54,102 bases of DNA from Megasphaera micronuciformis F0359 (GTDB taxonomy: Bacteria > Bacillota > Negativicutes > Veillonellales > Megasphaeraceae): positions 27,234 through 81,335 of the forward strand of contig NZ_GL538212.1 of the NCBI RefSeq assembly GCF_000165735.1. The letters run 5' to 3'. A program made the translations under genes and the position numbers. The notes under the pieces were generated by a model. The model saw only the letters and a list, made by a program, of their open reading frames with translations. It was not told where the DNA came from and made no database searches. Below are positions 1-12,594 of the stretch, one piece after another. How positions within the stretch are numbered: the first letter of the stretch is position 1; the number at the start of each line of letters is the position of its first letter.

Positions 1-310
1 CCCCGTAAGGGGACGGAAACATACTTATCATACGTTGTCACATAGAATGTTCTTTGAGTTTGATTTAATTACCGTTACCCCGTAAGGGGACGGAAACAAC
101 CACTCTTTAATTGTATACATAACCGTACCGCCTTGATTTAATTACTGTTACCCCGTAAGGGGACGGAAACATTGATTCCGTTAATATTGCATCATCCTTC
201 TGTTCGATTTAATTACCGTTACCCCGTAAGGGGACGAAAACGTATTGACTTAAGTTCTTACCTAATCTCTCACTGAATTTATTGCTTTTACATCGAAAGG
301 GGATGAAGAA
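1..310 (+). CRISPR. Type III-A CRISPR array, trailer-proximal end
   Basis: Three full 36-bp repeats lie at 62-97, 135-170 and 206-241. The last 20 bases of another repeat are at 1-20, and a degenerate terminal repeat is at 275-310. Spacers are 21-61 (41 bp), 98-134 (37), 171-205 (35) and 242-274 (33). Each repeat carries a CCCC-GTAA-GGGG hairpin and ends in ACGGAAAC, which matches the 8-nt crRNA 5' handle known for Csm systems of Streptococcus thermophilus type. Repeat 2 has one C-to-T change and repeat 3 one G-to-A change in the handle. Decay towards the right shows that the array is transcribed rightwards, with its leader outside the window. Cas genes follow on the same strand. Confidence 0.97.
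275..310 (+). repeat. Degenerate terminal CRISPR repeat
   Basis: A 36-base stretch, exactly one 33-bp spacer after the last good repeat, matches the consensus at 24 of 36 positions by eye, including GGGGA in the 3' half. The CCCC arm of the hairpin has become CATC, so the stem is broken. Decay of the leader-distal repeat is common in arrays. This copy fixes the array polarity. Confidence 0.8.
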
Positions 311-332
311 GCATCGTGTATAACCCTAGTAA

Positions 333-373
333 AAAAGACGACTTAACGATAAATTTTCGTTAAGTCGTCTTTT
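333..373. terminator. Bidirectional terminator between array and cas1
   Basis: A perfect 17-bp stem (333-349 with 357-373) has a 7-nt loop and is flanked by A and T runs, so it can end transcription in either direction. It separates the CRISPR transcript from the cas operon promoter. Confidence 0.85.
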
Positions 374-419
374 GATAGATGAGGGTATGTTCAAGTTGAA
401 TCTTAGAAAGTCAGAGATA

Positions 420-469
420 CTCAATACTTGAGAGTGATTTTTACAGAAAAATCACAGACATGATATAAT
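420..469 (+). promoter_or_regulatory. cas operon promoter with overlapping dyads
   Basis: A -35 TTTACA (440-445), an 18-bp spacer and an extended -10 (TG at 461-462, TATAAT at 464-469) lie about 70 bases before the cas1 start. The -35 sits inside a perfect 9+9 bp inverted repeat: GTGATTTTT at 434-442 and AAAAATCAC at 447-455, with a 4-base spacer. A second small dyad, CTCAA-TAC-TTGAG, lies just upstream at 420-432. Placement over the -35 suggests a repressor operator. The regulator is unknown. Confidence 0.75.
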
Positions 470-539
470 AAAATCATATTTGATATATATGACAATCATG
501 AAAAATAAATTTAACGGCATTAATAAAGGAGCATTTTCT

Positions 540-1529
540 ATGAGTCATGTATATATAACGGAAGATGGGGCAAAGATATCTAAGCGTGGAGGTCATTTTA
601 TCCTCAGCCGTAATTCGGAAGTTTTGTTCGAAATACCTGAAGAAGGCTTAGAAAGTCTCACCCTTATTGGGCGGGTACAATTATCTGCGACAGTGATAGA
701 ACGATTGTTGCAAAAGGAGATTCCGGTTACGTGGTTGTCGAAGGGCGGATACTTTTTCGGTCGGCTAGAGTCAACTCGTCATTGTAATGCCGTAAAGCAA
801 GCTAAGCAAGTTGTCTTAACCGGCGGTTCCTTATACCTATCTATGGGAAAATCGATGATTGAGGCAAAGATTCATAATCAACAAGTCTTGCTGAGACGCT
901 ATAACCGAGAATTAGAAAGTGATTCTGTACGACAAAAGATAGAACAGCTTTCGCGAATAAAGCATAAGATCATGCAGGTGCCGAATCGATCAGAATTGAT
1001 GGGCAATGAAGGTTTAGCGGCTCGAATATATTTTGACGCTCTAAGTGAACTGATAGAACCGGAGTTTCGCTTTAACGGACGGACAAAACGACCGCCACAG
1101 GACCCCTTCAATGCCGTTATCGGTTTTGGGTATACGCTATTGCTGTACGAGCTGTATACCGCATTATCTAATGTGGGGTTGCACCCTTATTTCGGCTGTC
1201 TTCATGCGTTGAAGCATCGTCATCCGGCTTTGGCGTCCGACTTAATGGAGGAATGGAGGCCTGTTATTATTGACAGCTTGGCCATGAGTCTTTTTAACAG
1301 GCATCAATTAAAAGCGGAACACTTTGAGCGTACGGAAGACGGCGTGTATTTAAATAGAGAAGGTCGATATACTTTTTTGCAGGCTTATGAGAAGCGGTTG
1401 CGTACGTCGAATAAATATTCGGATGAAAAGCAATCGTTTCGGCAATCATTGGTTAATAGGGCGGAAATGTATTCTTTGGCTATTATGGAAGATGATGAGT
1501 CATGTTATCAGCCCATGAGATTGAGGTAA
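540..1529 (+). CDS. cas1: Cas1 adaptation integrase
   Basis: This is the metal-dependent integrase that, with Cas2, inserts new spacers at the leader end of the array. The product is 329 aa, normal for Cas1. The catalytic triad is visible as E157 in a GNEG motif, H222 in the CLHALKH segment and D234 in ASDLMEEWRP. The ATG at 540 is chosen because AAAGGAG lies 8 bases before it. In-frame starts further upstream (from 480) have no ribosome site and fall close to the predicted transcription start. It is the first gene of the operon. cas2 starts 4 bases after its stop, as expected for co-translated adaptation genes. Confidence 0.97.
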   Translation: MSHVYITEDGAKISKRGGHFILSRNSEVLFEIPEEGLESLTLIGRVQLSATVIERLLQKEIPVTWLSKGGYFFGRLESTRHCNAVKQAKQVVLTGGSLYLSMGKSMIEAKIHNQQVLLRRYNRELESDSVRQKIEQLSRIKHKIMQVPNRSELMGNEGLAARIYFDALSELIEPEFRFNGRTKRPPQDPFNAVIGFGYTLLLYELYTALSNVGLHPYFGCLHALKHRHPALASDLMEEWRPVIIDSLAMSLFNRHQLKAEHFERTEDGVYLNREGRYTFLQAYEKRLRTSNKYSDEKQSFRQSLVNRAEMYSLAIMEDDESCYQPMRLR

Positions 1530-1533
1530 GCTT

Positions 1534-1836
1534 ATGACATACTTTCGAGAGAATCATGACGAACGTAAATATGTTATTTTAGTCATTTATGACATTGTGG
1601 ATAATAAGCGACGGTCTCAGATGGTGAAGTGCCTAGAAAAATATGGCATTCGGGTTCAGAAATCTGCATTTGAAGTGTATATTTCCAAAAAGAAACTAGT
1701 TAAGTTAGAAGCTGAGGCCGGCAGTATTATAGATATAACATGCGACTCTCTGAGGATTTACTCTTTAAAACACAATACAGCTATTAAAACTTGGGGAATC
1801 GGTTGTTGTAAGGCTGAAGATGTCATTATTTTGTAA
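1534..1836 (+). CDS. cas2: Cas2 adaptation protein
   Basis: Small ferredoxin-fold partner of Cas1; the dimer bridges two Cas1 dimers in the spacer-integration complex. The product is 100 aa. The first beta strand leads into VIYDIVDNKRR, with the family's conserved Asp at D20, followed by KYGIRVQKSAFEV, typical of Cas2. It starts 4 bases after cas1. A GAGG within the end of cas1 serves as ribosome site. Together with cas1 it shows that this type III locus keeps its own adaptation module instead of relying on another CRISPR locus. Confidence 0.95.
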   Translation: MTYFRENHDERKYVILVIYDIVDNKRRSQMVKCLEKYGIRVQKSAFEVYISKKKLVKLEAEAGSIIDITCDSLRIYSLKHNTAIKTWGIGCCKAEDVIIL

Positions 1837-1854
1837 TATATGGAGATGAAGTAG

Positions 1855-4311
1855 ATGGATCAATTGGAAGCAAGGTTACAAAAGGCGGCCTTATTGCATG
1901 ATATAGGAAAAGTTTACCAACGCTCCGGGCTTGGACAAGGGACACACTCGGAGGCCGGCGTAGCATTTTTAAAGCCCTATTATGAGAATGACGATAGTTT
2001 GGTGTTGAGAGCTGTTAAATATCATCATGCTGATATGGCTAAACGCCTTACAAAAGATGATGATTTAGCTTATATTGTATATGAAGCTGATAACATAGCG
2101 GCAGGGACGGATCGGCGTGAAATGCAGGATAGTGGAAGTAGCGGCTTCGATAGACGAGCCAGTTTGGAATCTGTGTTTAACGTGTTCGGGGCTAATGAGA
2201 GTAGCGAGAATACAGCTTACTATTTACGTGGGTTAATGAAGGATAAAGATATGTTGTACCCTCAGCCCAAAACAGATATTCAAGCTCCCGCCTCTATGTA
2301 TAAGGAGATTATTGAAGACCTGAAGAGAAACTTCGAAAGACGCAAGCCTGATGATATGGAAGTAAATGAAATGCTCCAAGTATTGGAGGCAACTCTTTCA
2401 TATATTCCGTCCAGTACGGCGACCAATCAACCGGCAGATATATCCTTGTATGAACATGTAAAACTTACGGCAGCCTTTGCAGCAGCTATGTATCGCTGGT
2501 TTAAAGCCGAAGGCATAGAAGATTACAAATCCTATTGCTTCGGAGGGAAAAATGAAGATTGTCGCGAGAAAGCCATGTATTTACTGGTTTCCGGTGATAT
2601 ATCGGGTATTCAAAAATTTATTTATACCATTCCTTCTAAGGGTGCGTTAAAGAACCTGCGCGGACGTTCCTTCTATTTGGAAATATTGACAGAACATGTA
2701 GTTGATGAGTTGTTGACCATGACCGGACTTAGTCGGGCGAATCTTTTATATACAGGTGGCGGGCATTTCTACTTGCTAATGCCTAATACGAAAGAGGTTG
2801 TAAGTCAACTTCAACAGTTTGAAAACTTGCTGAATGCATGGTTCTTGAAGCACTTCGGAAATCGCTTGTATATTGCCTTCGGTTGGAGCGAATTTTCCGC
2901 CAATGAGATTATGTCCAAGGGAACGGGAATAGGGAATGTCTACCGTCGCGTCGGTAAAATCCTGTCAGAATGGAAATTACAGCGCTATTCAAAAGAGCAA
3001 TTGGAGGATATGTTTGATTGGGGCAGCGAGTTAAACTCTGTAGGGGATGGGATGCGTGAGTGTAATGTTTGCCATACGTCGGCTAATCCCGATTTGTTGC
3101 GACCGTATGTGTTAGGTGATGACGGTACCTTAGCTTGCGATACTTGTAATGCCTTAGCACAGTTGGGACAAGACATTTTAAATAAGGATGTCTTTATTAT
3201 TACTAGTACAGCGGAAGGGGGAATAGGACTTCCCGGCTTCGGTGAGGGGCGGTACTTGGAGGCAGTGACGCCGGCAGAAGCAGAACAACGTGATGACCTT
3301 GTTCGTGCGTATGTAAAAAATAAGGTTTGGACAGGTGAAAAGATGGCGACCCGCCTTTGGGTCGGTGATTACAGTGTAAGAAAAGATGATGGAAGCGGTT
3401 GTTTGGAATTTTCCGAACTCGCCGAACTAAGTGGTGGCGGAAAAGAGAAAGCCGGGATTGAACGTATCGGTGTCCTGCGAGCTGATGTGGATAATCTGGG
3501 TGCTGCCTTTGTTGCCGGTATTTCTCGAGAGTTCGCAACTGTAACGAGGACGGCTGTATTATCGCACCAGCTATCCGTGTTTTTTAAACGATATATTAAT
3601 GAACTTTGCGAAGGAAATGTTAACGGTATTAATGAAAAAGAATACAGCCAATTTAGCTTGTTTAGTCGAGAGAAGGATAAAAAAAGAGATGTCCATATCG
3701 TTTATTCAGGTGGTGACGACATGTTCATTGTCGGCGCCTGGGATGACTTAATCGAATTGGCTGTTGATATTCGGCGAGCCTTCCGGCGCTTTACAAATGA
3801 TAAACTGACGTTTTCGGCAGGCATCGGTCTATTCAAGAGTGCCTTTCCTATCTCGCAGATGGCGAGGATTGCCGGGGAGTTGGAAAGCTACTCAAAGAAG
3901 AATACAGGGAAGAACAGTATTACCTTGTTCGGAGCGTCTGCAGATGACGGCCCGTATAGTAGTCCTATTGCTTATAAATGGGATGATTTTACGGAAAAGG
4001 TTTGCGGTCAGAAGCTGAGACTTCTTCAGAGCTGCTTTTATTTTGATGAGAAAAAGCCGGAAGAGAATAAATTGTTTATCGGTAAGGGGGGGTTATATCG
4101 AATTATGCAATTAATGGCTGATTGTGAGACAAAGCGTATTAATATTGCCCGTATTGCTTATACCTTGGGGCGAATGGAGCCTAAGGATCGCAAGAGAATG
4201 ACCGCCTATAATGAAGTGCGGGATAATATTTATAAATGGAGTTTGAACGGAAGTGATCGCAGTGAATTGATAACGGCCATTCAATTATTGATATATTCAT
4301 TAAGAGCATAA
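1855..4311 (+). CDS. cas10: Cas10/Csm1, signature subunit of the type III-A complex
   Basis: Large subunit (818 aa) of the Csm interference complex. An N-terminal HD nuclease domain shows LLHDIGK (H15, D16), associated with target-activated ssDNA cleavage. A first Palm-like domain begins near residue 245 (VSGDISGIQKFIY). A CxxC...CxxC zinc ribbon follows (C403, C406, C428, C431). The second Palm carries GGDD at residues 619-622, the site that makes cyclic oligoadenylate from ATP when target RNA is bound. Both catalytic centres are intact, so DNA cleavage and second-messenger signalling should both work, which fits csm6 at the operon end. The start follows a GGAGATGAAG stretch 18 bases after cas2. 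Confidence 0.97.
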   Translation: MDQLEARLQKAALLHDIGKVYQRSGLGQGTHSEAGVAFLKPYYENDDSLVLRAVKYHHADMAKRLTKDDDLAYIVYEADNIAAGTDRREMQDSGSSGFDRRASLESVFNVFGANESSENTAYYLRGLMKDKDMLYPQPKTDIQAPASMYKEIIEDLKRNFERRKPDDMEVNEMLQVLEATLSYIPSSTATNQPADISLYEHVKLTAAFAAAMYRWFKAEGIEDYKSYCFGGKNEDCREKAMYLLVSGDISGIQKFIYTIPSKGALKNLRGRSFYLEILTEHVVDELLTMTGLSRANLLYTGGGHFYLLMPNTKEVVSQLQQFENLLNAWFLKHFGNRLYIAFGWSEFSANEIMSKGTGIGNVYRRVGKILSEWKLQRYSKEQLEDMFDWGSELNSVGDGMRECNVCHTSANPDLLRPYVLGDDGTLACDTCNALAQLGQDILNKDVFIITSTAEGGIGLPGFGEGRYLEAVTPAEAEQRDDLVRAYVKNKVWTGEKMATRLWVGDYSVRKDDGSGCLEFSELAELSGGGKEKAGIERIGVLRADVDNLGAAFVAGISREFATVTRTAVLSHQLSVFFKRYINELCEGNVNGINEKEYSQFSLFSREKDKKRDVHIVYSGGDDMFIVGAWDDLIELAVDIRRAFRRFTNDKLTFSAGIGLFKSAFPISQMARIAGELESYSKKNTGKNSITLFGASADDGPYSSPIAYKWDDFTEKVCGQKLRLLQSCFYFDEKKPEENKLFIGKGGLYRIMQLMADCETKRINIARIAYTLGRMEPKDRKRMTAYNEVRDNIYKWSLNGSDRSELITAIQLLIYSLRA

Positions 4312-4326
4312 AATGGGGTGAGTATA

Positions 4327-4779
4327 ATGGAAGAAAAAATGAAAAAGGAAGAAATAGACGTAGTAGAAAGAGCCGAAAAAGTGATGAAAGAGTTGAAAAA
4401 TGAAAGTGACGGCAGTGGCGGCCGATATAGGAATAACCGTTCTGTAAAGATGATTACGGTTAGTCAGATTCGTAAATTTTTAACGGCAGTTAACTCTTTA
4501 ACGGATAAGATAGAACGTTATAAAGTGGAGCATCTTCGACAAGGGGAACAAGTACTTGAGTTATCTACTGATTTGGCAGCAGAAGTTAAGTATTTAAAAA
4601 TAAAGCTGGCTTACCAATCGGGACGCAAGTCTTCGGTCAAAGACTTTGAAAAGAAGGCGGGATTGTTGGCAGAGATAAGTAGTATCGGGAAAGATCTTAA
4701 TAAGTATATGAACTTTGCCAGATATGTAGAGGCTTTGGTAGCATACCATAAATATTATGGAGGTAGAGATTATGAGTGA
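4327..4779 (+). CDS. csm2: Csm2 small subunit
   Basis: Small helical subunit that forms the inner filament of the Csm complex along the crRNA-target duplex. The product is about 150 aa. The conserved core is visible (ITVSQIRKFLTAV, KLAYQSGR, YVEALVAYHKYYGG), preceded by a charged, probably flexible N-terminus of about 45 residues. The ATG at 4327 is preferred because GGGGTGAG lies just before it; an in-frame GTG at 4318 is inside that ribosome site. Its end overlaps csm3 by 8 bases, implying translational coupling. Confidence 0.93.
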   Translation: MEEKMKKEEIDVVERAEKVMKELKNESDGSGGRYRNNRSVKMITVSQIRKFLTAVNSLTDKIERYKVEHLRQGEQVLELSTDLAAEVKYLKIKLAYQSGRKSSVKDFEKKAGLLAEISSIGKDLNKYMNFARYVEALVAYHKYYGGRDYE

Positions 4780-5467
4780 ACAAGGCGTATTACGCGGGAA
4801 ATTGATGATAACGGGAAAAGTAAAGTTAGTGACCGGCCTCCACATAGGAGCGGCACAGGATTTTGCCCCCATTGGAGCTGTAGACAGGCTCTTTGTTCGC
4901 GATCCGTTGACAAAGGAGCCGGTTATTCCCGGCAGTTCTTTGAAAGGAAAGTTGCGCACCTTGCTTGCTAAGGCAGAAGCGACGGGATATGTTTTGAACA
5001 AAATAAATGATGATTCCGAATTGATTAAGCGACTTTTCGGAAGTGCCGGTAAAGATACGGCCAGACCGTCGAGATTACAGTTTTATGATTTGAGAATGAC
5101 AGATGAAAGTGTTGAAAAATTCAGCTCTCTTGATTTAGATACCTACATCGGAGAGGTTAAGTTTGAAAATACGATTAGCCGATTAACGGCTGTGGCCACT
5201 CCTCGCCAAATCGAAAGAGTTCCGTCCGGGGCGGAATTTGGCTTTAAGCTTGTATATAATATTGAAAGGGAAGGTGAGCTTAAAGAAGACATACAGGCAC
5301 TCGGTACGGCATTGCAATTATTGGAAAATGACTATTTAGGCGGTCACGGCTCTCGTGGATATGGCAAGATTGCTTTTGAAGATCTTGCGGTTCAGGATAA
5401 GTTTGTTAAGAACGGCGAGGCCGTTGATTGCAATGAATGTGAGAATTGGTTAAAGGGATGTAGATAA
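4772..5467 (+). CDS. csm3: Csm3 backbone RNase (Cas7 family)
   Basis: Cas7-type RAMP protein (231 aa) forming the helical backbone; each copy cuts bound target RNA at 6-nt steps. The catalytic Asp is D38 in PIGAVDR, matching D32 of the Staphylococcus epidermidis protein. The RAMP glycine-rich segment IPGSSLKGKLRTLL and the C-terminal GGHGSRGYGKI loop are both present. The ATG at 4772 follows GGAGGT closely; the in-frame ATG at 4757 overlaps that ribosome site and is less likely. It starts inside the end of csm2, and its stop shares a base with the csm4 start (TAATG). Confidence 0.96.
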   Translation: MSEQGVLRGKLMITGKVKLVTGLHIGAAQDFAPIGAVDRLFVRDPLTKEPVIPGSSLKGKLRTLLAKAEATGYVLNKINDDSELIKRLFGSAGKDTARPSRLQFYDLRMTDESVEKFSSLDLDTYIGEVKFENTISRLTAVATPRQIERVPSGAEFGFKLVYNIEREGELKEDIQALGTALQLLENDYLGGHGSRGYGKIAFEDLAVQDKFVKNGEAVDCNECENWLKGCR

Positions 5468-6471
5468 TGATGGTATCATATCTGTACCAATTAAAATTCG
5501 ATACACCCGTCCATTTCGGAACTATTGAGGCGGGCGACGGGCTTGAATCGGTTGTATATACATATGAGTCGGACCGGTTGTTCAGCAGTTTATGCTGTGA
5601 GTTGGCTGAAAACGGTGATAGTAACAAAATTTTAGATTTAGTCGGGGCTGCAGATTCGGGCAAATTAATACTCTCTGATTTGTTTCCTTTTGCCAAAGTA
5701 GACGGCGATTGCCGATTGTATATTCCCAAGCCAGTTTTATCTATTGAACGCAATGAAAGTGATGAAATTCGGTCCTATACGGAAGCTTGTAAAGCATCGG
5801 TTGCAAAAAAAACTAATAAGAAGTTGGAATTTATTCGAGTATCTAAGGTAGACGAGTATATACAGTCATTAAAGTCGAACCGGGCTTTTACAGAAGACGA
5901 CGATTTCGGTGCGAGTTGGTTGACGGAGCAGGTTAGTTGTCGAGGCGATAAGCCATTGCCGTATTACGTAGGCACCTTTGTATTTGCAAAAAATACGGGT
6001 CTTTATGGAATCATTCAAGGGGAAGAGCGCATAGTGCAGCGTAGCTTGGACCTTTTGGAACAGTTGGGACTTAGCGGTATTGGTGGCAAAAGAAGCAGCG
6101 GTTATGGAAAATTCCGTTTTCATGACGACCCGTTTATATTGGATGAAGAGCCGCCGTATGATGATGCCATAGAGTTAAAACGACGTATGGATGATAAAAC
6201 TGCGCAATGGCATATGAACATGTCTCTCCTTATACCCGATATAGGAGATATTGATGATATTAAAAAGGGATTTTATTCCTTGAAAAAAAGAAGCGGATTT
6301 GTATCGTCTTTAGGTTTCGGGTATGTGCATAAGCGACATGATATATATGGAATTGCATCCGGATCGTGTTTTAGAAATCAGCCGGCCGGTAAAGTGGCTG
6401 CCATGAGAACCGATACGGGGCATGACGTTTATCGAAACGGGAAAGCCTTATATCTGGGGGTGAATGCATGA
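5467..6471 (+). CDS. csm4: Csm4 (Cas5-like RAMP, 5' handle binding)
   Basis: Cas5-group RAMP subunit (334 aa) that caps the 5' handle end of the crRNA and contacts Cas10. Visible features are the N-terminal RAMP strand with TPVHFGTIE, the central glycine-rich GLSGIGGKRSSGYGKFRF, and a second RAMP-like half ending in a KRSGFVSSLGFGYVHKRHD region. Length fits Csm4. Its start overlaps the csm3 stop by one base, and its stop overlaps csm5 by four bases (ATGA). Confidence 0.93.
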   Translation: MMVSYLYQLKFDTPVHFGTIEAGDGLESVVYTYESDRLFSSLCCELAENGDSNKILDLVGAADSGKLILSDLFPFAKVDGDCRLYIPKPVLSIERNESDEIRSYTEACKASVAKKTNKKLEFIRVSKVDEYIQSLKSNRAFTEDDDFGASWLTEQVSCRGDKPLPYYVGTFVFAKNTGLYGIIQGEERIVQRSLDLLEQLGLSGIGGKRSSGYGKFRFHDDPFILDEEPPYDDAIELKRRMDDKTAQWHMNMSLLIPDIGDIDDIKKGFYSLKKRSGFVSSLGFGYVHKRHDIYGIASGSCFRNQPAGKVAAMRTDTGHDVYRNGKALYLGVNA

Positions 6472-7694
6472 GGGAGCAACACAGAGAGACAAGGAATTTT
6501 GAGATAGAATGCTTATCACCCGTTCATATCGGGAGTGGTGATAAGTTGACGGCAGTAGAATATATTTTTGATGAAAAAGCTCGTCAAGTATATTTTCTTG
6601 ATCAAGCACGCTGGCTACAATTTTTATATAGAAAAAGGCTTACCGATGAATTCTTGCGACATATTAGACGTACGGCGGAACAGTTAAAAAGCAAAGATCC
6701 TTTTTGCGGACAACTCTTATGGGACTGGCTTACACAAAAAGGGATTAGGCCTGATGAAATTCGTAATCTTGCCGGTACAATCGGACATGTTCATACCAAC
6801 AATCCTTTAATAGATCGACGCTCAGTGAATGATATTGCCAGAAATGTTACGGATGCCTTCGGATCTGTGTATATTCCCGGTAGTTCCATAAAAGGCGCTT
6901 TGCGGACAGGGCTTCTTAGCAGTATTATTCTTAAAAACAAGGAGAAGTATACAACAAGTTGGAAAGAGATTGAAAGTACTATATTTAATGCAAGAGGTCG
7001 AAGCGATTTAAAATGTTTGGGGAAGGTGCAAAGCAAACTGGAAGGCCTTGTATTCCAGAGATTAGGCTTGCAGGATGAACATGGGAGAGCTTGCGGCGGT
7101 TCCGTTAATGATGTCTTGCGCGGCTTGATAGTAAGTGACGCAGCTTGTGTAGAACCCGTGTGCAATACGGTTATTGTACAAAAACTCGACGGTTCTTTGG
7201 CTAAGACAGAGGGCATGAATCCTTGCAGGTTGCCCCTATTTCGTGAATGTATTCCAGCCGGGACTCGGTTGCGCTTTTCCGTCACGGCTGATTTAGAGAT
7301 GTTGAAAGTAATCGGGATTGGAAGTATTGACGATATTTTTTCGGTGACTCGTGAATATGTGATGAGAAACTTGAAATTTCAGGAACATGCTTTTACTCGT
7401 GCGTTCGGCAGGCAGTTTTTTGCTGCTCAAGCCTTTAATGAAGCGAAACAGGCAGATTTATTCCTTGGTGGCGGTACGGGCTTTCAGTATAAAACGGTTA
7501 TATATGACTTGGCACCGGACGAAGAAATCGGGCGTGCTGCTGTCGCCAAGTATTTAGATTTAGTATTTACAAATAAAGACTCGAAGCCGCAACATAAAAG
7601 TAAGGATAAAGATATATCGCCGCGTACCGTTAAATTGACTGATCAAGGGAGAGAATACCAGTTAATGGGACTTTGTCGAGTAAAAGAGGTATAA
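6468..7694 (+). CDS. csm5: Csm5 (Cas7-like RAMP, 3' end cap)
   Basis: RAMP subunit (408 aa) placed at the crRNA 3' end, where it helps recruit nucleases for crRNA maturation. Motifs are an N-terminal CLSPVHIGSGDKL segment, IPGSSIKGALRTGLL near residue 137, and a C-terminal FLGGGTGFQYKT glycine-rich stretch. Length and order match Csm5. It starts by a four-base ATGA overlap with csm4 and ends two bases before cas6. Confidence 0.94.
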   Translation: MREQHRETRNFEIECLSPVHIGSGDKLTAVEYIFDEKARQVYFLDQARWLQFLYRKRLTDEFLRHIRRTAEQLKSKDPFCGQLLWDWLTQKGIRPDEIRNLAGTIGHVHTNNPLIDRRSVNDIARNVTDAFGSVYIPGSSIKGALRTGLLSSIILKNKEKYTTSWKEIESTIFNARGRSDLKCLGKVQSKLEGLVFQRLGLQDEHGRACGGSVNDVLRGLIVSDAACVEPVCNTVIVQKLDGSLAKTEGMNPCRLPLFRECIPAGTRLRFSVTADLEMLKVIGIGSIDDIFSVTREYVMRNLKFQEHAFTRAFGRQFFAAQAFNEAKQADLFLGGGTGFQYKTVIYDLAPDEEIGRAAVAKYLDLVFTNKDSKPQHKSKDKDISPRTVKLTDQGREYQLMGLCRVKEV

Positions 7695-7696
7695 AA

Positions 7697-8452
7697 ATGC
7701 TACGTTTGCTGGAGTATGAGGTATCGACATCGACGGGGATTCGCCTTCACCCGTCCATGGGTTCTGTCATTCATGGAGCCCTTATGGAGAAGTTGGGGGA
7801 AGAGTGGGGAAATGTATTGCATGAAATGACTGTGCGTCCCTTTCATCAATACCTGTTTTTCCACAAGAAACGCAAGGTGTTTATTTGGCACATTGGTGTC
7901 GTTGATGATGCTTTATTTGATGCCTTATCGGAGATATTGGAGCTTCGCAAATTGTATATAAAAAAACATGAGTGCGACTTGTACTTGAGTGACCCCACGC
8001 TCCTTGCCGAGACTACTTTTGATACATTGGCAGCCCAGGCATTTACAACGGAGCACTTACCGTATGGCTGTAGGTTGATGTTACATACGCCCACAACTTG
8101 TAAACATGACGGTGCTTATGACGTCTTTCCTGACCTTAACCGTATTTTCTACGGTCTTGATAATAAGTGGAATGCTTTTTCGAAAGAACTCTGTTTAGAA
8201 CAAGAAGGCCTGGAAGCCGTCTTAGGGAATGCATGTAGAATCGGTAAGTATGAATTGCGATCCGCTCTTTTTTCATTAGAAGGGTCTCGTATCAATGGAT
8301 ATGAGGGTATGATACAGTTGAACTTTCGAGGAAATGAAATGACAAGAAGGATTGTCATGTTGTTGTTAATGTGGGCGTCATTCACCGGCATCGGTATAAA
8401 GACCGCCTTGGGCATGGGCGGGTGCTCATGCGAATTCTTATATAAGGAGTAA
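7697..8452 (+). CDS. cas6: Cas6 pre-crRNA endoribonuclease
   Basis: Endoribonuclease that cleaves repeat RNA 8 nt before the repeat end, giving the 5' handle. The product is 251 aa. The C-terminal RAMP signature is clear as GIGIKTALGMGG near residues 231-242. The start at 7697 follows AGAGGT at suitable distance; an in-frame TTG at 7673 would overlap csm5 and lacks a ribosome site. Cas6 lies between csm5 and csm6, not beside cas1 or cas2. The catalytic His cannot be fixed by eye; H17 or H53 are possible. Confidence 0.9.
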   Translation: MLRLLEYEVSTSTGIRLHPSMGSVIHGALMEKLGEEWGNVLHEMTVRPFHQYLFFHKKRKVFIWHIGVVDDALFDALSEILELRKLYIKKHECDLYLSDPTLLAETTFDTLAAQAFTTEHLPYGCRLMLHTPTTCKHDGAYDVFPDLNRIFYGLDNKWNAFSKELCLEQEGLEAVLGNACRIGKYELRSALFSLEGSRINGYEGMIQLNFRGNEMTRRIVMLLLMWASFTGIGIKTALGMGGCSCEFLYKE

Positions 8453-8458
8453 GGGATT

Positions 8459-9799
8459 ATGCAGTATTTATTTACACCGGTTGGCAATACAGATCCTGTT
8501 CGTGACTACCACGATGGAGGTATGCTACATATCTTAAGGCATTATAAAATCGATAAGGTGTTCATATTCCTGACGGCGGATATGGAAGAAAAAGAGGAGC
8601 AGTGGCATTGCTACTCTCTAGGCGTGAAGAAAGTGGCTCCGCAGTGTGAGATTGAATTTATTAAAAGCGGAATAACGGAACCTCAAAATTATGAAAAGTT
8701 ACTTTATTTGCAAGAGAAATTCGATGAGTTGTTTGAGCAATTTCCGGACGTTAAATGGATTTTGAATATCACTTCGGGAACTTCGCAGATGCAGACGATT
8801 ATGTCTTTCTTATCTGTTGATTATCCTTCGTGTACAGCGGTACAGGTCTCGAATCCGCATGTTGATAGGGACAAGGTGGCCGTTCATTGTGAAAAAGAAG
8901 AATATGTCCAAATGTTGGAGTGTAATGAAGATGATGATCCGAGTAGCCCTAATCGTTGTACCGAGCCGCCCCTATTAATGATTAGAAGGCATGTGCTGAG
9001 ATTTCAAATAGAATCTTTGGTTCGTAATTATGAATATGGAGGAGCCCTTCAGCTTGTGGAACAAAATCGAAGACTGTTTTCAGATACGACTGAAAGGTTA
9101 TTGCGGCACGGTGTGTGCCGGACTATGTTAAATTGGCGCGAGGCCAATAAAATTATTTCTGACTATGAAGGGAACATACTCATGCAGAGTCCCGGTGATT
9201 TTTCTGAGTACTTCCAGGTAATGGAACTGCGTCAACGCAAGGGACAGTTATCCGAATTTATTGTTAAGCTGTCGCCCGTCTTAATGGGGTTAGGCTTTAA
9301 ATATTTAGAATGTATAAAGGGCTTTGATTTGCTGCAATGTGGTAGGGAATTGGATAGAAATGGTGAACGTGTATTTATATGGGATTGTAATAAAGCACGA
9401 AAATATAACCCCGAATTGCAGGACTATTTAGATAAAAAATATTCCGGTGACATGAAGGATGGTCCCTTGTACTTTCAGACCATTATGGCGCTCTGCGAGT
9501 ATTATAAGGCGACAACTCTAAAATCTGATGCCCTACATAATGAAATAACAACGGCTTTTAGTAAATTGAGAACTGTAGAAGAAACGGCACGAAACCCGAT
9601 AGCTCATAATATTTGCAACATGACGGAGACTCGATTAGAAGAAGAGACAAAGAAGCAGTTGCTGGAACCTCTGAATTCGGCAGGAATTTTAAGGATTTTA
9701 CGTAAGGTTTATAAGGACATTTATAAAAAGAATATGGCTTGGACTTATGACGGATTGAATGATTGTATTGTTGAAAGTTTACAGACCTTTTCGATGTAG
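8459..9799 (+). CDS. csm6: Csm6 CARF-HEPN ancillary ribonuclease
   Basis: Stand-alone RNase (446 aa) activated by cyclic oligoadenylate made by Cas10. The N-terminal CARF domain shows the start LFTPVGNTDPVRD with a following GGMLHILRHY helix, and the ligand-loop motif NITSGTSQM near residue 103. The C-terminal HEPN domain has the catalytic R-x4-H at R378 to H383 (RNPIAH). AAGGAG precedes the ATG. It is the last gene of the operon, before a terminator. The presence of both the GGDD cyclase and this effector predicts a working signalling branch with collateral RNA cleavage. Confidence 0.95.
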   Translation: MQYLFTPVGNTDPVRDYHDGGMLHILRHYKIDKVFIFLTADMEEKEEQWHCYSLGVKKVAPQCEIEFIKSGITEPQNYEKLLYLQEKFDELFEQFPDVKWILNITSGTSQMQTIMSFLSVDYPSCTAVQVSNPHVDRDKVAVHCEKEEYVQMLECNEDDDPSSPNRCTEPPLLMIRRHVLRFQIESLVRNYEYGGALQLVEQNRRLFSDTTERLLRHGVCRTMLNWREANKIISDYEGNILMQSPGDFSEYFQVMELRQRKGQLSEFIVKLSPVLMGLGFKYLECIKGFDLLQCGRELDRNGERVFIWDCNKARKYNPELQDYLDKKYSGDMKDGPLYFQTIMALCEYYKATTLKSDALHNEITTAFSKLRTVEETARNPIAHNICNMTETRLEEETKKQLLEPLNSAGILRILRKVYKDIYKKNMAWTYDGLNDCIVESLQTFSM

Positions 9800-9838
9800 C
9801 AGAAGATGTAGAGGTTTCAGGTTATCTCCCCCTTCAAA

Positions 9839-9867
9839 AAAGGACGCATGCATAGCATGCGTCCTTT
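9839..9867. terminator. Bidirectional terminator after csm6
   Basis: A 13-bp perfect stem (9839-9851 with 9855-9867) with a 3-base ATA loop and A/T flanks lies between the convergent csm6 and metallophosphoesterase genes, serving both. Confidence 0.85.
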
Positions 9868-9896
9868 CTTCATCTCCTACCAACTTCCCCCACGTC

Positions 9897-11216
9897 CTAC
9901 TTCCGAATCTCAGCCGTATCGAGTAGGGTGCCGTCAGGTAAGAAGCATTGGAAGCGGATGGTGTCGGCAGTGGCTTCCATTGTCATGTAGTTGTCCGTTT
10001 CGGGCTGAGGCGGTACGTAGAGGTCCAAGGTGTGTTGTTTCCACAGGCTCGGGTAGCGTACGTCGCCGGCGACTCCTGTAAGAAGGTAAAGCGGGCCCGA
10101 TTCGTCTCGTGTAAAGTTTTTGATATGGCCGCGGTTACGGTAGGTGTGTAAGTGACCTGTCAGGACGGCGTCTACGTTGTAGACGTCGAAGATGGGCATA
10201 AAGACGCGGCCTTCGTCAGATATGCCTTCGTCACGCGATTCAGGTCTCGTATCGGGGTTAAAGGCGTAGCGAAGTACGTCTTTATGCATGAGGACGATTT
10301 TCCATTTTTTCGTCGTTTGTTTCAAGTCGTTAATGAGCCAAGTCGTTTCTTCGTCCAAAAGGGTGGGCTCGAAGTCTTTCAGTTCCGTAAACTGTGTATC
10401 CATGACGGTGAAGTGAATATCGCCGTAGTCGAAGGAGTAGAACTGGTTCGGGTATTTGGACAGACCGTTTTTCGGCAAGTCGAAGAGGGTCGTGTATGAC
10501 ACGGGCATGTGCATATTCCAGTCCAAGTCATAGGTTTCGTGGTTGCCGTCCAAGGGGGCCACGGGAATTTGGCGAATCATGTCTTTGCAGGCATCAAACC
10601 AGGCATTCCACTGGTACGAGGCCTGGCCGTTGTCGACTAAATCGCCTATATTGATGAAAAATTGTGCGTCCTTATTGCGCTTCCACGCCGGCATGGCCGT
10701 ATCTCGCCAGACTCCGTAGTCGGCAGACTGAGAGTCGGGAAAGATTAAGGCTTTAAAGTCGGCCCCGTCAGCGGTCCGTAAAGGGTACCACTGGCTGCGG
10801 CGGTCGCCGTAGCCTACGCGGTACTCGTAGTTCGTGCCGGGTGTCAAATCGGCCAGGTAGGCACCGTGAACATAGGATGTATTGCCGTCATCGTTTAAGA
10901 CCGTGTCGGTACCGTCGACGGTCCACGTGTCTTCAGCGTCTTTTAAACGGTATTCGACGACTGTCCCTTTTTCTTCATATTGAGATTGCCACATGACCGT
11001 ACGGGACGTACGGCTGTTGGCCGTAATGATTTGACGTATGTTGTAGGCATCGACCGAGTCGGTCAGTTTATAGTGAGCCGCCGTGGCCTTTGTAACACGG
11101 ACGGCTTGGTCTACGATAGCCTTCGTACCGGGTACGAACTCGTATACGCCGGCAGCGGCTGCCGCAACGGCAATGCCTGTAGCTTTCAGAAAATCTCTGC
11201 GTGATAGGTATTTCAA
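9897..11216 (-). CDS. Tat-exported purple-acid-phosphatase-like metallophosphoesterase
   Basis: Predicted secreted or envelope phosphoesterase. The N-terminus carries a Tat signal (SRRDFLKATG, then an Ala-rich hydrophobic run). A fibronectin-like domain of the purple acid phosphatase type spans roughly residues 50-140. The two-metal calcineurin-like core follows: FPDSQS (about 159), GDLVDNG (about 191), GNHE (about 224), LMHKD (about 310) and TGHLHTY (about 353). I place the start at a TTG (11216), because GGGAGG lies 7 bases before it. This gives 439 aa with the twin Arg at positions 6-7. The ATG at 11249 has no clear ribosome site and would lengthen the n-region. Substrate unknown. Confidence 0.9.
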   Translation of the reverse strand: MKYLSRRDFLKATGIAVAAAAAGVYEFVPGTKAIVDQAVRVTKATAAHYKLTDSVDAYNIRQIITANSRTSRTVMWQSQYEEKGTVVEYRLKDAEDTWTVDGTDTVLNDDGNTSYVHGAYLADLTPGTNYEYRVGYGDRRSQWYPLRTADGADFKALIFPDSQSADYGVWRDTAMPAWKRNKDAQFFINIGDLVDNGQASYQWNAWFDACKDMIRQIPVAPLDGNHETYDLDWNMHMPVSYTTLFDLPKNGLSKYPNQFYSFDYGDIHFTVMDTQFTELKDFEPTLLDEETTWLINDLKQTTKKWKIVLMHKDVLRYAFNPDTRPESRDEGISDEGRVFMPIFDVYNVDAVLTGHLHTYRNRGHIKNFTRDESGPLYLLTGVAGDVRYPSLWKQHTLDLYVPPQPETDNYMTMEATADTIRFQCFLPDGTLLDTAEIRK

Positions 11217-11306
11217 TAGGTGCCTCCCGAAGAGTTTAGATAAAGTCATAGGATAAGGTCATTGTATGATTCTGCGGCATCATTGTCAATGAAGCGGCTT
11301 CTGTCC

Positions 11307-11335
11307 TTGACAGTGGCGGTCAAAGAAGATACACT
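11307..11335 (+). promoter_or_regulatory. Promoter of the T-box/trpS operon
   Basis: A perfect -35 TTGACA (11307-11312), a 17-bp spacer and -10 TACACT (11330-11335) place the transcript start near 11342, at the head of the T-box leader. Confidence 0.7.
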
Positions 11336-11341
11336 TCTATA

Positions 11342-11583
11342 CGTATAGAATAATGTCGATGAACGGGTGTAAGTAGGTATGATGCAGCTGTGCTTAGCGA
11401 GTCGGAGACGGTGAAAGTCCGACGGCGGCGGTTATAGTGAATGGGCCCGGGAGATGCGATCCGAAGCCAGTAGGCGTCGCCGGTACCTGCCGTTAAGAGG
11501 AATGAGTCGGGCTTTATGCCAAATCGGGTGGTACCGCGGAACACGTCCTTTCGTCCCTAGTGAGGGGATGAAAGGCTTTTTTT
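11342..11583 (+). promoter_or_regulatory. T-box leader, tryptophan type
   Basis: The antiterminator signature GGGTGGTACCGCGG is at 11526-11539, followed by a Rho-independent terminator at 11547-11583 (CCTTTCGTCCC pairing with GGGGATGAAAGG, then a T run). The preceding 180 bases hold the Stem I region. A candidate specifier codon TGG (11442-11444, in GAATGGG) fits tRNA-Trp and the downstream trpS. In this class, uncharged tRNA binding stabilises the antiterminator and allows readthrough. Confidence 0.9.
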
Positions 11584-11607
11584 ATGTCAATAATCAGGAG
11601 GCACATT

Positions 11608-12594
11608 ATGTCCGTTATTTTTTCAGGAATTCAGCCCAGCGGCAATTTGACGCTGGGAAACTATTTAGGCGCACTGCGTAATTTCACGAAGGTACAAGAT
11701 GAAAACGAATGCTATTACTGCGTCGTCAATCAGCATGCTATTACGGTCCCTCAAGACCCGAAGACGCTTCATGAACGGACACGTCAATTGGCAGCCATCT
11801 ATTTGGCAGCTGGTTTGGATCCGGAAAAAGCGGTTCTCTTCGTTCAGTCGGAAGTTCCCGAACATGTACAGCTCGGTTGGATTATGACGACCATGTCCTA
11901 TGTGGGTGAATTGGAACGCATGACTCAGTACAAGGACAAGGCTTCTAAGCGCGGCGACTCCGTACCGGCAGGTCTTTTGACCTATCCGCCCTTGATGGCC
12001 GCCGATATTTTGTTGTACCAGACGAATCTTGTTCCTGTCGGTGATGACCAGAAGCAGCATCTGGAAATTACGCGTGACTTGGCACAGCGGTTTAATCGCG
12101 TTTACGGTGAAGACGTATTTACCATTCCCGAAATCCTCTTGGGACAAGACGGAACTCGTGTCATGAGCTTACAGGAACCGACGAAGAAGATGAGTAAGTC
12201 CGACGACAATCAGACGGCTACCGTCTACCTTCTCGATACGCCGAAGGATATTGAAAAGAAAATTAAGCGTGCTCAGACGGACAGCGACAATGCCGTTCGT
12301 TACGACAGAGAAGCAAAGCCCGGTATTTCCAACTTGATGGATATCTTTGCAGCTCTTACGGACAAAAGCCACGAAGAAATTGAAAAGGCTTATGCCGGAC
12401 AGGGCTACGGTACATTCAAGAAGGACGTAGCTGAAGCGACTATTTCCGTCCTTGAACCGATTCAAAAGCGTTATGCCGAACTCATTGACACGCCGGAACT
12501 TGATGTCATCCTTACGAAGGGTGCCGAAAAGGCACGTGAAAAGGCAAGCAAGACGTACGAAGCCGTTACGAAAGCTATGGGATTATACCGTTAA
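11608..12594 (+). CDS. trpS: Tryptophanyl-tRNA synthetase
   Basis: Class I aminoacyl-tRNA synthetase charging tRNA-Trp; 328 aa, normal length. The HIGH-equivalent is PSGNLTLGNYLG at residues 10-21 and KMSKS is at 194-198, both in the Rossmann core. The start at 11608 is chosen because AGGAGG precedes it; the in-frame ATG at 11584 lies directly behind the T-box terminator and has no ribosome site. It is controlled by the tryptophan T-box immediately upstream. yfbR follows after 10 bases and is probably co-transcribed. Confidence 0.97.
   Translation: MSVIFSGIQPSGNLTLGNYLGALRNFTKVQDENECYYCVVNQHAITVPQDPKTLHERTRQLAAIYLAAGLDPEKAVLFVQSEVPEHVQLGWIMTTMSYVGELERMTQYKDKASKRGDSVPAGLLTYPPLMAADILLYQTNLVPVGDDQKQHLEITRDLAQRFNRVYGEDVFTIPEILLGQDGTRVMSLQEPTKKMSKSDDNQTATVYLLDTPKDIEKKIKRAQTDSDNAVRYDREAKPGISNLMDIFAALTDKSHEEIEKAYAGQGYGTFKKDVAEATISVLEPIQKRYAELIDTPELDVILTKGAEKAREKASKTYEAVTKAMGLYR

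Follow-up and report, generated by a model that had tools for sequence, protein, structure and literature searches.

A perfect inverted repeat over the -35 element of the type III-A cas promoter of Megasphaera micronuciformis, a possible lineage-specific operator

We analysed a stretch of 54,102 nucleotides from Megasphaera micronuciformis F0359 (the window, to which all coordinates refer unless another locus is named). The window opens on the end of a CRISPR array, which is followed by a nine-gene type III-A operon. The array is on the + strand, with its first repeat at L005:7052, some 2.2 kb before position 1 of the window, and it runs into the window, where its last repeat (275-310) is degenerate. 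The features of the region are as follows.

1..310, + strand: 3' end of the CRISPR array, 36-nt repeats ending GGGGACGGAAAC (direct repeats D1/D3, spacing 69-77)
333..373, + strand: 17-bp hairpin between the array and the cas promoter (dG -24.4 kcal/mol, z -7.76 against shuffles)
420..432, no strand: small adjoining dyad (read directly; single genomic copy at no more than 1 mismatch)
434..455, no strand: 9+9 bp inverted repeat, putative operator (read directly; dyad scan)
440..469, + strand: promoter, with -35 at 440-445, TG at 461-462 and -10 at 464-469 (11/12 matches)
525..532, + strand: ribosome-binding-site-like AAAGGAGC (read directly)
540..9799, + strand: operon cas1-cas2-cas10-csm2-csm3-csm4-csm5-cas6-csm6 (NCBIfam matches, 9/9 ORFs)

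An earlier note on this DNA had described a nine-gene type III-A operon, and the NCBIfam matches bear this out. The presence of cas10/csm1 with csm2-5 identifies the type; for the cas6 ORF the sole family matched is Cas6, at a score under the NCBIfam cut-off (37.5 vs 58.65 bits). From their spacing, the nine genes are probably co-transcribed, and a single promoter may serve them all. The note's statement that this is the only visible promoter holds within positions 1-539, where the promoter scan found no promoter-like site besides 440-469. However, a site with 10/12 matches lies inside the operon, at 4300-4328 where csm2 begins, and could drive some of the genes; the density of such sites is equalled by shuffles. 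The NCBIfam profile search revealed no evident regulator among the nine ORFs. Because these match Cas/Csm families, autoregulation by the operon's own proteins, as the note had suggested, is unsupported.

The cas promoter lies in a segment (374-539) of 166 nt that is 73% AT. An 18-nt spacer separates TTTACA (440-445) from TATAAT (464-469), and the TG at 461-462 makes this a strong promoter of the extended -10 type. Its score is the joint best among the 32 promoter-like sites that the scanner found in positions 1-12000. Shuffles reach 24.0 sites over the same positions, and most of the others are therefore likely noise. Transcription is predicted to start near 476. This start places the inverted repeat at 434-455 at about -42 to -21, so that it would be outside the mRNA leader.

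That repeat reads GTGATTTTT-ACAG-AAAAATCAC, a perfect dyad of 9+9 bp with a 4-base spacer, and the -35 element sits entirely within it. Direct reading thus agrees with the earlier note, which had also reported a second small dyad beside it; this is CTCAA-TAC-TTGAG (5+5, spacer 3), which is predicted to form its own hairpin next to that of the larger dyad. The 434-455 dyad is not a terminator, as neither strand has a T-run behind it, and it is absent from the scanner's list of intrinsic terminators (G+C-rich stem and T-run). It is a two-fold symmetric site over a core promoter, as expected of an operator.

The position, size and perfection of the dyad, and the near one-turn spacing of its inner arms, suit the operator of a repressor. 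The best single explanation, to which we give an even chance, is that it is a lineage-specific putative operator, ordinary in kind, at which a dimeric regulator from another locus of the genome would act. What the DNA itself shows is the dyad, the promoter and their overlap; from these we infer protein binding and repression. A dimeric helix-turn-helix regulator would bind 434-455 and block RNA polymerase at the -35 element, and transcription of the cas and csm genes would be held down until a signal released it. If a protein does bind the dyad, an entire type III-A system of the Negativicutes would be open to control from one site. A more elaborate version, in which the operator serves a dedicated infection-responsive repressor, was gained after the split from Anaeroglobus, and switches cas1 to csm6 as a unit, separately from an array with its own terminator, seems to us very improbable.

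The main rival explanation is chance: a functionless dyad, largely a T-run and an A-run in a segment that is 73% AT, lying over a plain extended -10 promoter. We regard this as a serious possibility that falls somewhat short of an even chance. In the whole window there are 15 perfect dyads with arms of at least 9 and a spacer of 0-10, where 20 Markov simulations yielded 2.55 on average; many of the 15 are terminator-like by eye. Some such dyads are thus expected in a scan of 54 kb. When the segment 374-539 was simulated 20,000 times with matched composition, a perfect dyad with arms of at least 9 was present in 2.3% of cases. What argues against chance is the position: in these simulations the dyad covered the -35 element in only 0.3%, a figure that is too favourable because the dyad was picked from the whole 54-kb window. 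A 22-bp stretch placed at random in the window would cover a -35 element of comparable quality in only 0.09% of positions. The window contains 97 promoter-like sites, and among the 15 dyads only that at 434-455 lies over the -35 element of one.

Relatives lend some weight to chance. Among the relatives in which the locus was found, Anaeroglobus geminatus is the nearest, with a Cas1 that is 70% identical. When the promoters are anchored at the -10 element, 23/37 bases are identical from there onward, including TATAAT and the TATATATGACA run; by eye, the extended -10 is kept and TTTACA is not evident. The dyad is not kept: over its segment the best agreement is 10/22 at offsets -3 to +3, and from 75 bases before the -10 up to cas1 there is no dyad with 8/9 arm pairs. 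The one relative with an alignable promoter thus has no counterpart of the dyad. Given the 70% identity of Cas1, this is a weak test. The relatives compared are too distant for judging a fast-changing operator, and absence of conservation, by which the earlier note would have judged its proposal refuted, refutes it only in part.

In two further genomes of the genus (G001 and G002), the 300 nt upstream of cas1 lack any dyad with arms of at least 8. In G001 the cas1 matches are split over two contigs (L016 and L009), one piece with an internal stop codon, and the gene is probably broken or misassembled. Among cas1 upstream regions of other loci, a dyad with arms of at least 9 occurs within 170 nt in 1/74, where 1.01 are expected (74 of the 80 loci fetched were counted, six being omitted for having less than 100 nt upstream). 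Dyads are therefore not general to the regions upstream of cas1.

The surroundings of cas1 vary among these loci. In A. geminatus the array (37 repeat-like matches) is farther from cas1, the two being separated by ORFs that resemble, by eye, two ABC transporter genes. A MarR-like gene, whose NCBIfam matches are all under cut-off, lies beyond the array (L142:3857-7343 and 11490-11963 for all of these). In a Veillonellaceae MAG (L029), an ORF of 125 aa lies 38-416 bases upstream of cas1, ending 38 bases before it; by eye we take it to be HicB-antitoxin-like.

A repressor that regulates itself often has a second operator copy, although not every operator does. The genome scan identified no second copy of the dyad at no more than 2 arm mismatches, which is a further point for chance, and the copy near a regulator gene for which the earlier note had proposed to look was not found. 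Four genomic sites appear at 3 arm mismatches, against 1 for a backwards control pattern, and none was accepted as a second copy. The L004 site is inside a long ORF, that at C33:301730 is inside a 368-aa ORF (ATPase-like by eye), that in L003 is at the start of an ORF that looks secreted by eye, and that in L002 overlaps predicted ORFs. A search with short arms and 1 mismatch gave three other sites (L126, L127 and L128). The L128 site lies between two divergent genes, phage repressor-like by eye, and shares 14/22 letters with the dyad, which makes it at most a weak lead. Thus, with whole arms at up to 3 mismatches and short arms at 1, a range that more divergent copies would escape, no further copy was identified, including one at a regulator's own gene.

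The genome's possible dimeric regulators include two TetR_N matches and three Crp-type helix-turn-helix matches (2/3 of the latter above cut-off, one of those two with an in-frame stop). Each of these TetR and Crp matches was viewed in its 3-kb locus, where the sites most like the arms have 5 or more mismatches. A helix-turn-helix-looking ORF of 75 aa before the CRISPR leader (L005:6604-6831) was considered as the regulator and set aside: it has no Pfam match at 1e-3 and no NCBIfam match above cut-off, and its first part and its residues 53-74 correspond to separate longer open frames in relatives of the genus, so that it reads as a fused gene remnant.

We also searched for a mobile origin of the dyad. 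No plasmid matches at E 0.01. With E up to 1 there are 16 matching phage records, and the best of the five listed has E 0.004 over 38 bases. Identical arms are present in 5 stretches of the viral collection, again consistent with chance, and no viral contig contains the -10 region in exact form. A BLAST match in another genome (G012, E 1.9e-4) was discarded, being a stretch that precedes an unrelated ORF.

Taken together, repressor control as the earlier note proposed it is favoured by the position, size and perfection of the dyad and by the low simulated frequency over the -35; the dyad-free promoter of A. geminatus, the absent second copy and the 1/74 count stand against it. The note's remark that little is known of such regulators overstates the case. 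Published examples for type III-A systems are CasR, SarA/ArcR and PigU, so regulation of such operons is known in kind, and the dyad as it stands is operator-like, of a familiar sort with precedents for III-A control. Literature titles on the type III-A cas1 promoter or on Megasphaera type III CRISPR included none about this locus, and among those listed for Megasphaera with type III CRISPR none concerned CRISPR regulation.

The closest precedent is CasR (Rv1776c), a TetR-family protein that represses csm6 of the Mycobacterium tuberculosis type III-A locus by way of a 20-bp palindrome, in which an interval of 4 bp separates the two inverted repeats (PMC9953421). The likeness to the putative operator described here lies in a palindrome of about 20 bp, a 4-bp interval and a type III-A gene. 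The CasR site, however, differs in sequence and lies upstream of the csm6 -35 rather than over that of cas1; CasR also binds its own promoter (PMC9953421), whereas a second copy of the dyad was not found in this genome. PigU, a LysR-type regulator of Serratia, likewise lowers expression of a III-A cas operon by repression, but it also controls arrays and a type I-F system; in the main text 'inverted' and 'binding site' occur 0 times (PMC10810281). Serratia type III-A is also treated in a paper on Rsm/Csr (PMC8450108, in excerpt). In the type III-A system of Staphylococcus aureus, the cas genes are switched on by SarA and by ArcR (PMC12462963). That case resembles the present one as direct III-A control in a Gram-positive Firmicute, and differs in that both proteins are activators and that Pcas is inside cas1 (PMC12462963, in excerpt).

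The S. aureus case suggests that the dyad could be the site of a global regulator of known class, either CodY or, as with ArcR, a CRP/FNR protein. The GTGA...TCAC ends of the dyad resemble a CRP site, and the three Crp-type matches in the genome would supply candidates. However, the ends are 14 bases apart (GTGA-N14-TCAC), whereas the E. coli motif for the family to which ArcR belongs is TGTGA-N6-TCACA (PMC12462963, in excerpt). CodY gave 0 matches in the genome, which is 98% complete, with the control search positive in 2/14 genomes. We therefore consider a global regulator most unlikely.

No more probable, in our view, is that the dyad works as a hairpin, an attenuator or processing site, in readthrough RNA that extends from the array to cas1. 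It does fold on both strands in company with the small dyad (-10.5 and -9.3 kcal/mol, z -3.48 and -2.66), and the S. aureus study describes the array and cas genes as one transcript (PMC12462963). The much stronger hairpin at 333-373 lies between the array and the dyad, though, and no U-tract follows the dyad. Furthermore, of the 10 Rfam matches in positions 1-2000 (E up to 1), none reaches its gathering score and none is over 434-455. The array transcript probably terminates at the 333-373 hairpin, which the scanner, looking for a T-run beyond the stem, did not list as a terminator.

Only some loci probably have a cas promoter of their own, since repeats lie close to cas1 in others. In G002 and several Selenomonas-like relatives, the array repeats reach to within about 50 bases of cas1, and the repeat core is found on the cas1 strand, no more than 170 nt from cas1, in 22/74 loci.

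Control of the CRISPR leader together with the operon was considered and dropped, as the closest match to the dyad arms in the leader region (L005:6421-7055) has 7 mismatches. About 550 bases before the array there is another perfect dyad (10+10, 6-base spacer, AAGATATTAAGTCTGTTTAATATCTT, L005:6479-6504), unlike the cas dyad and upstream of the 75-aa ORF mentioned above. The leader-proximal spacer (L005:7088-7126) is identical to positions 389-427 at 25/39 bases, on the same strand. This likeness, found post hoc, is probably due to chance: it is reached by 2/200 shuffles (18 script-readable spacers) and by 2/322 other segments of the window. A crRNA of the sense of this spacer would pair with antisense RNA only.
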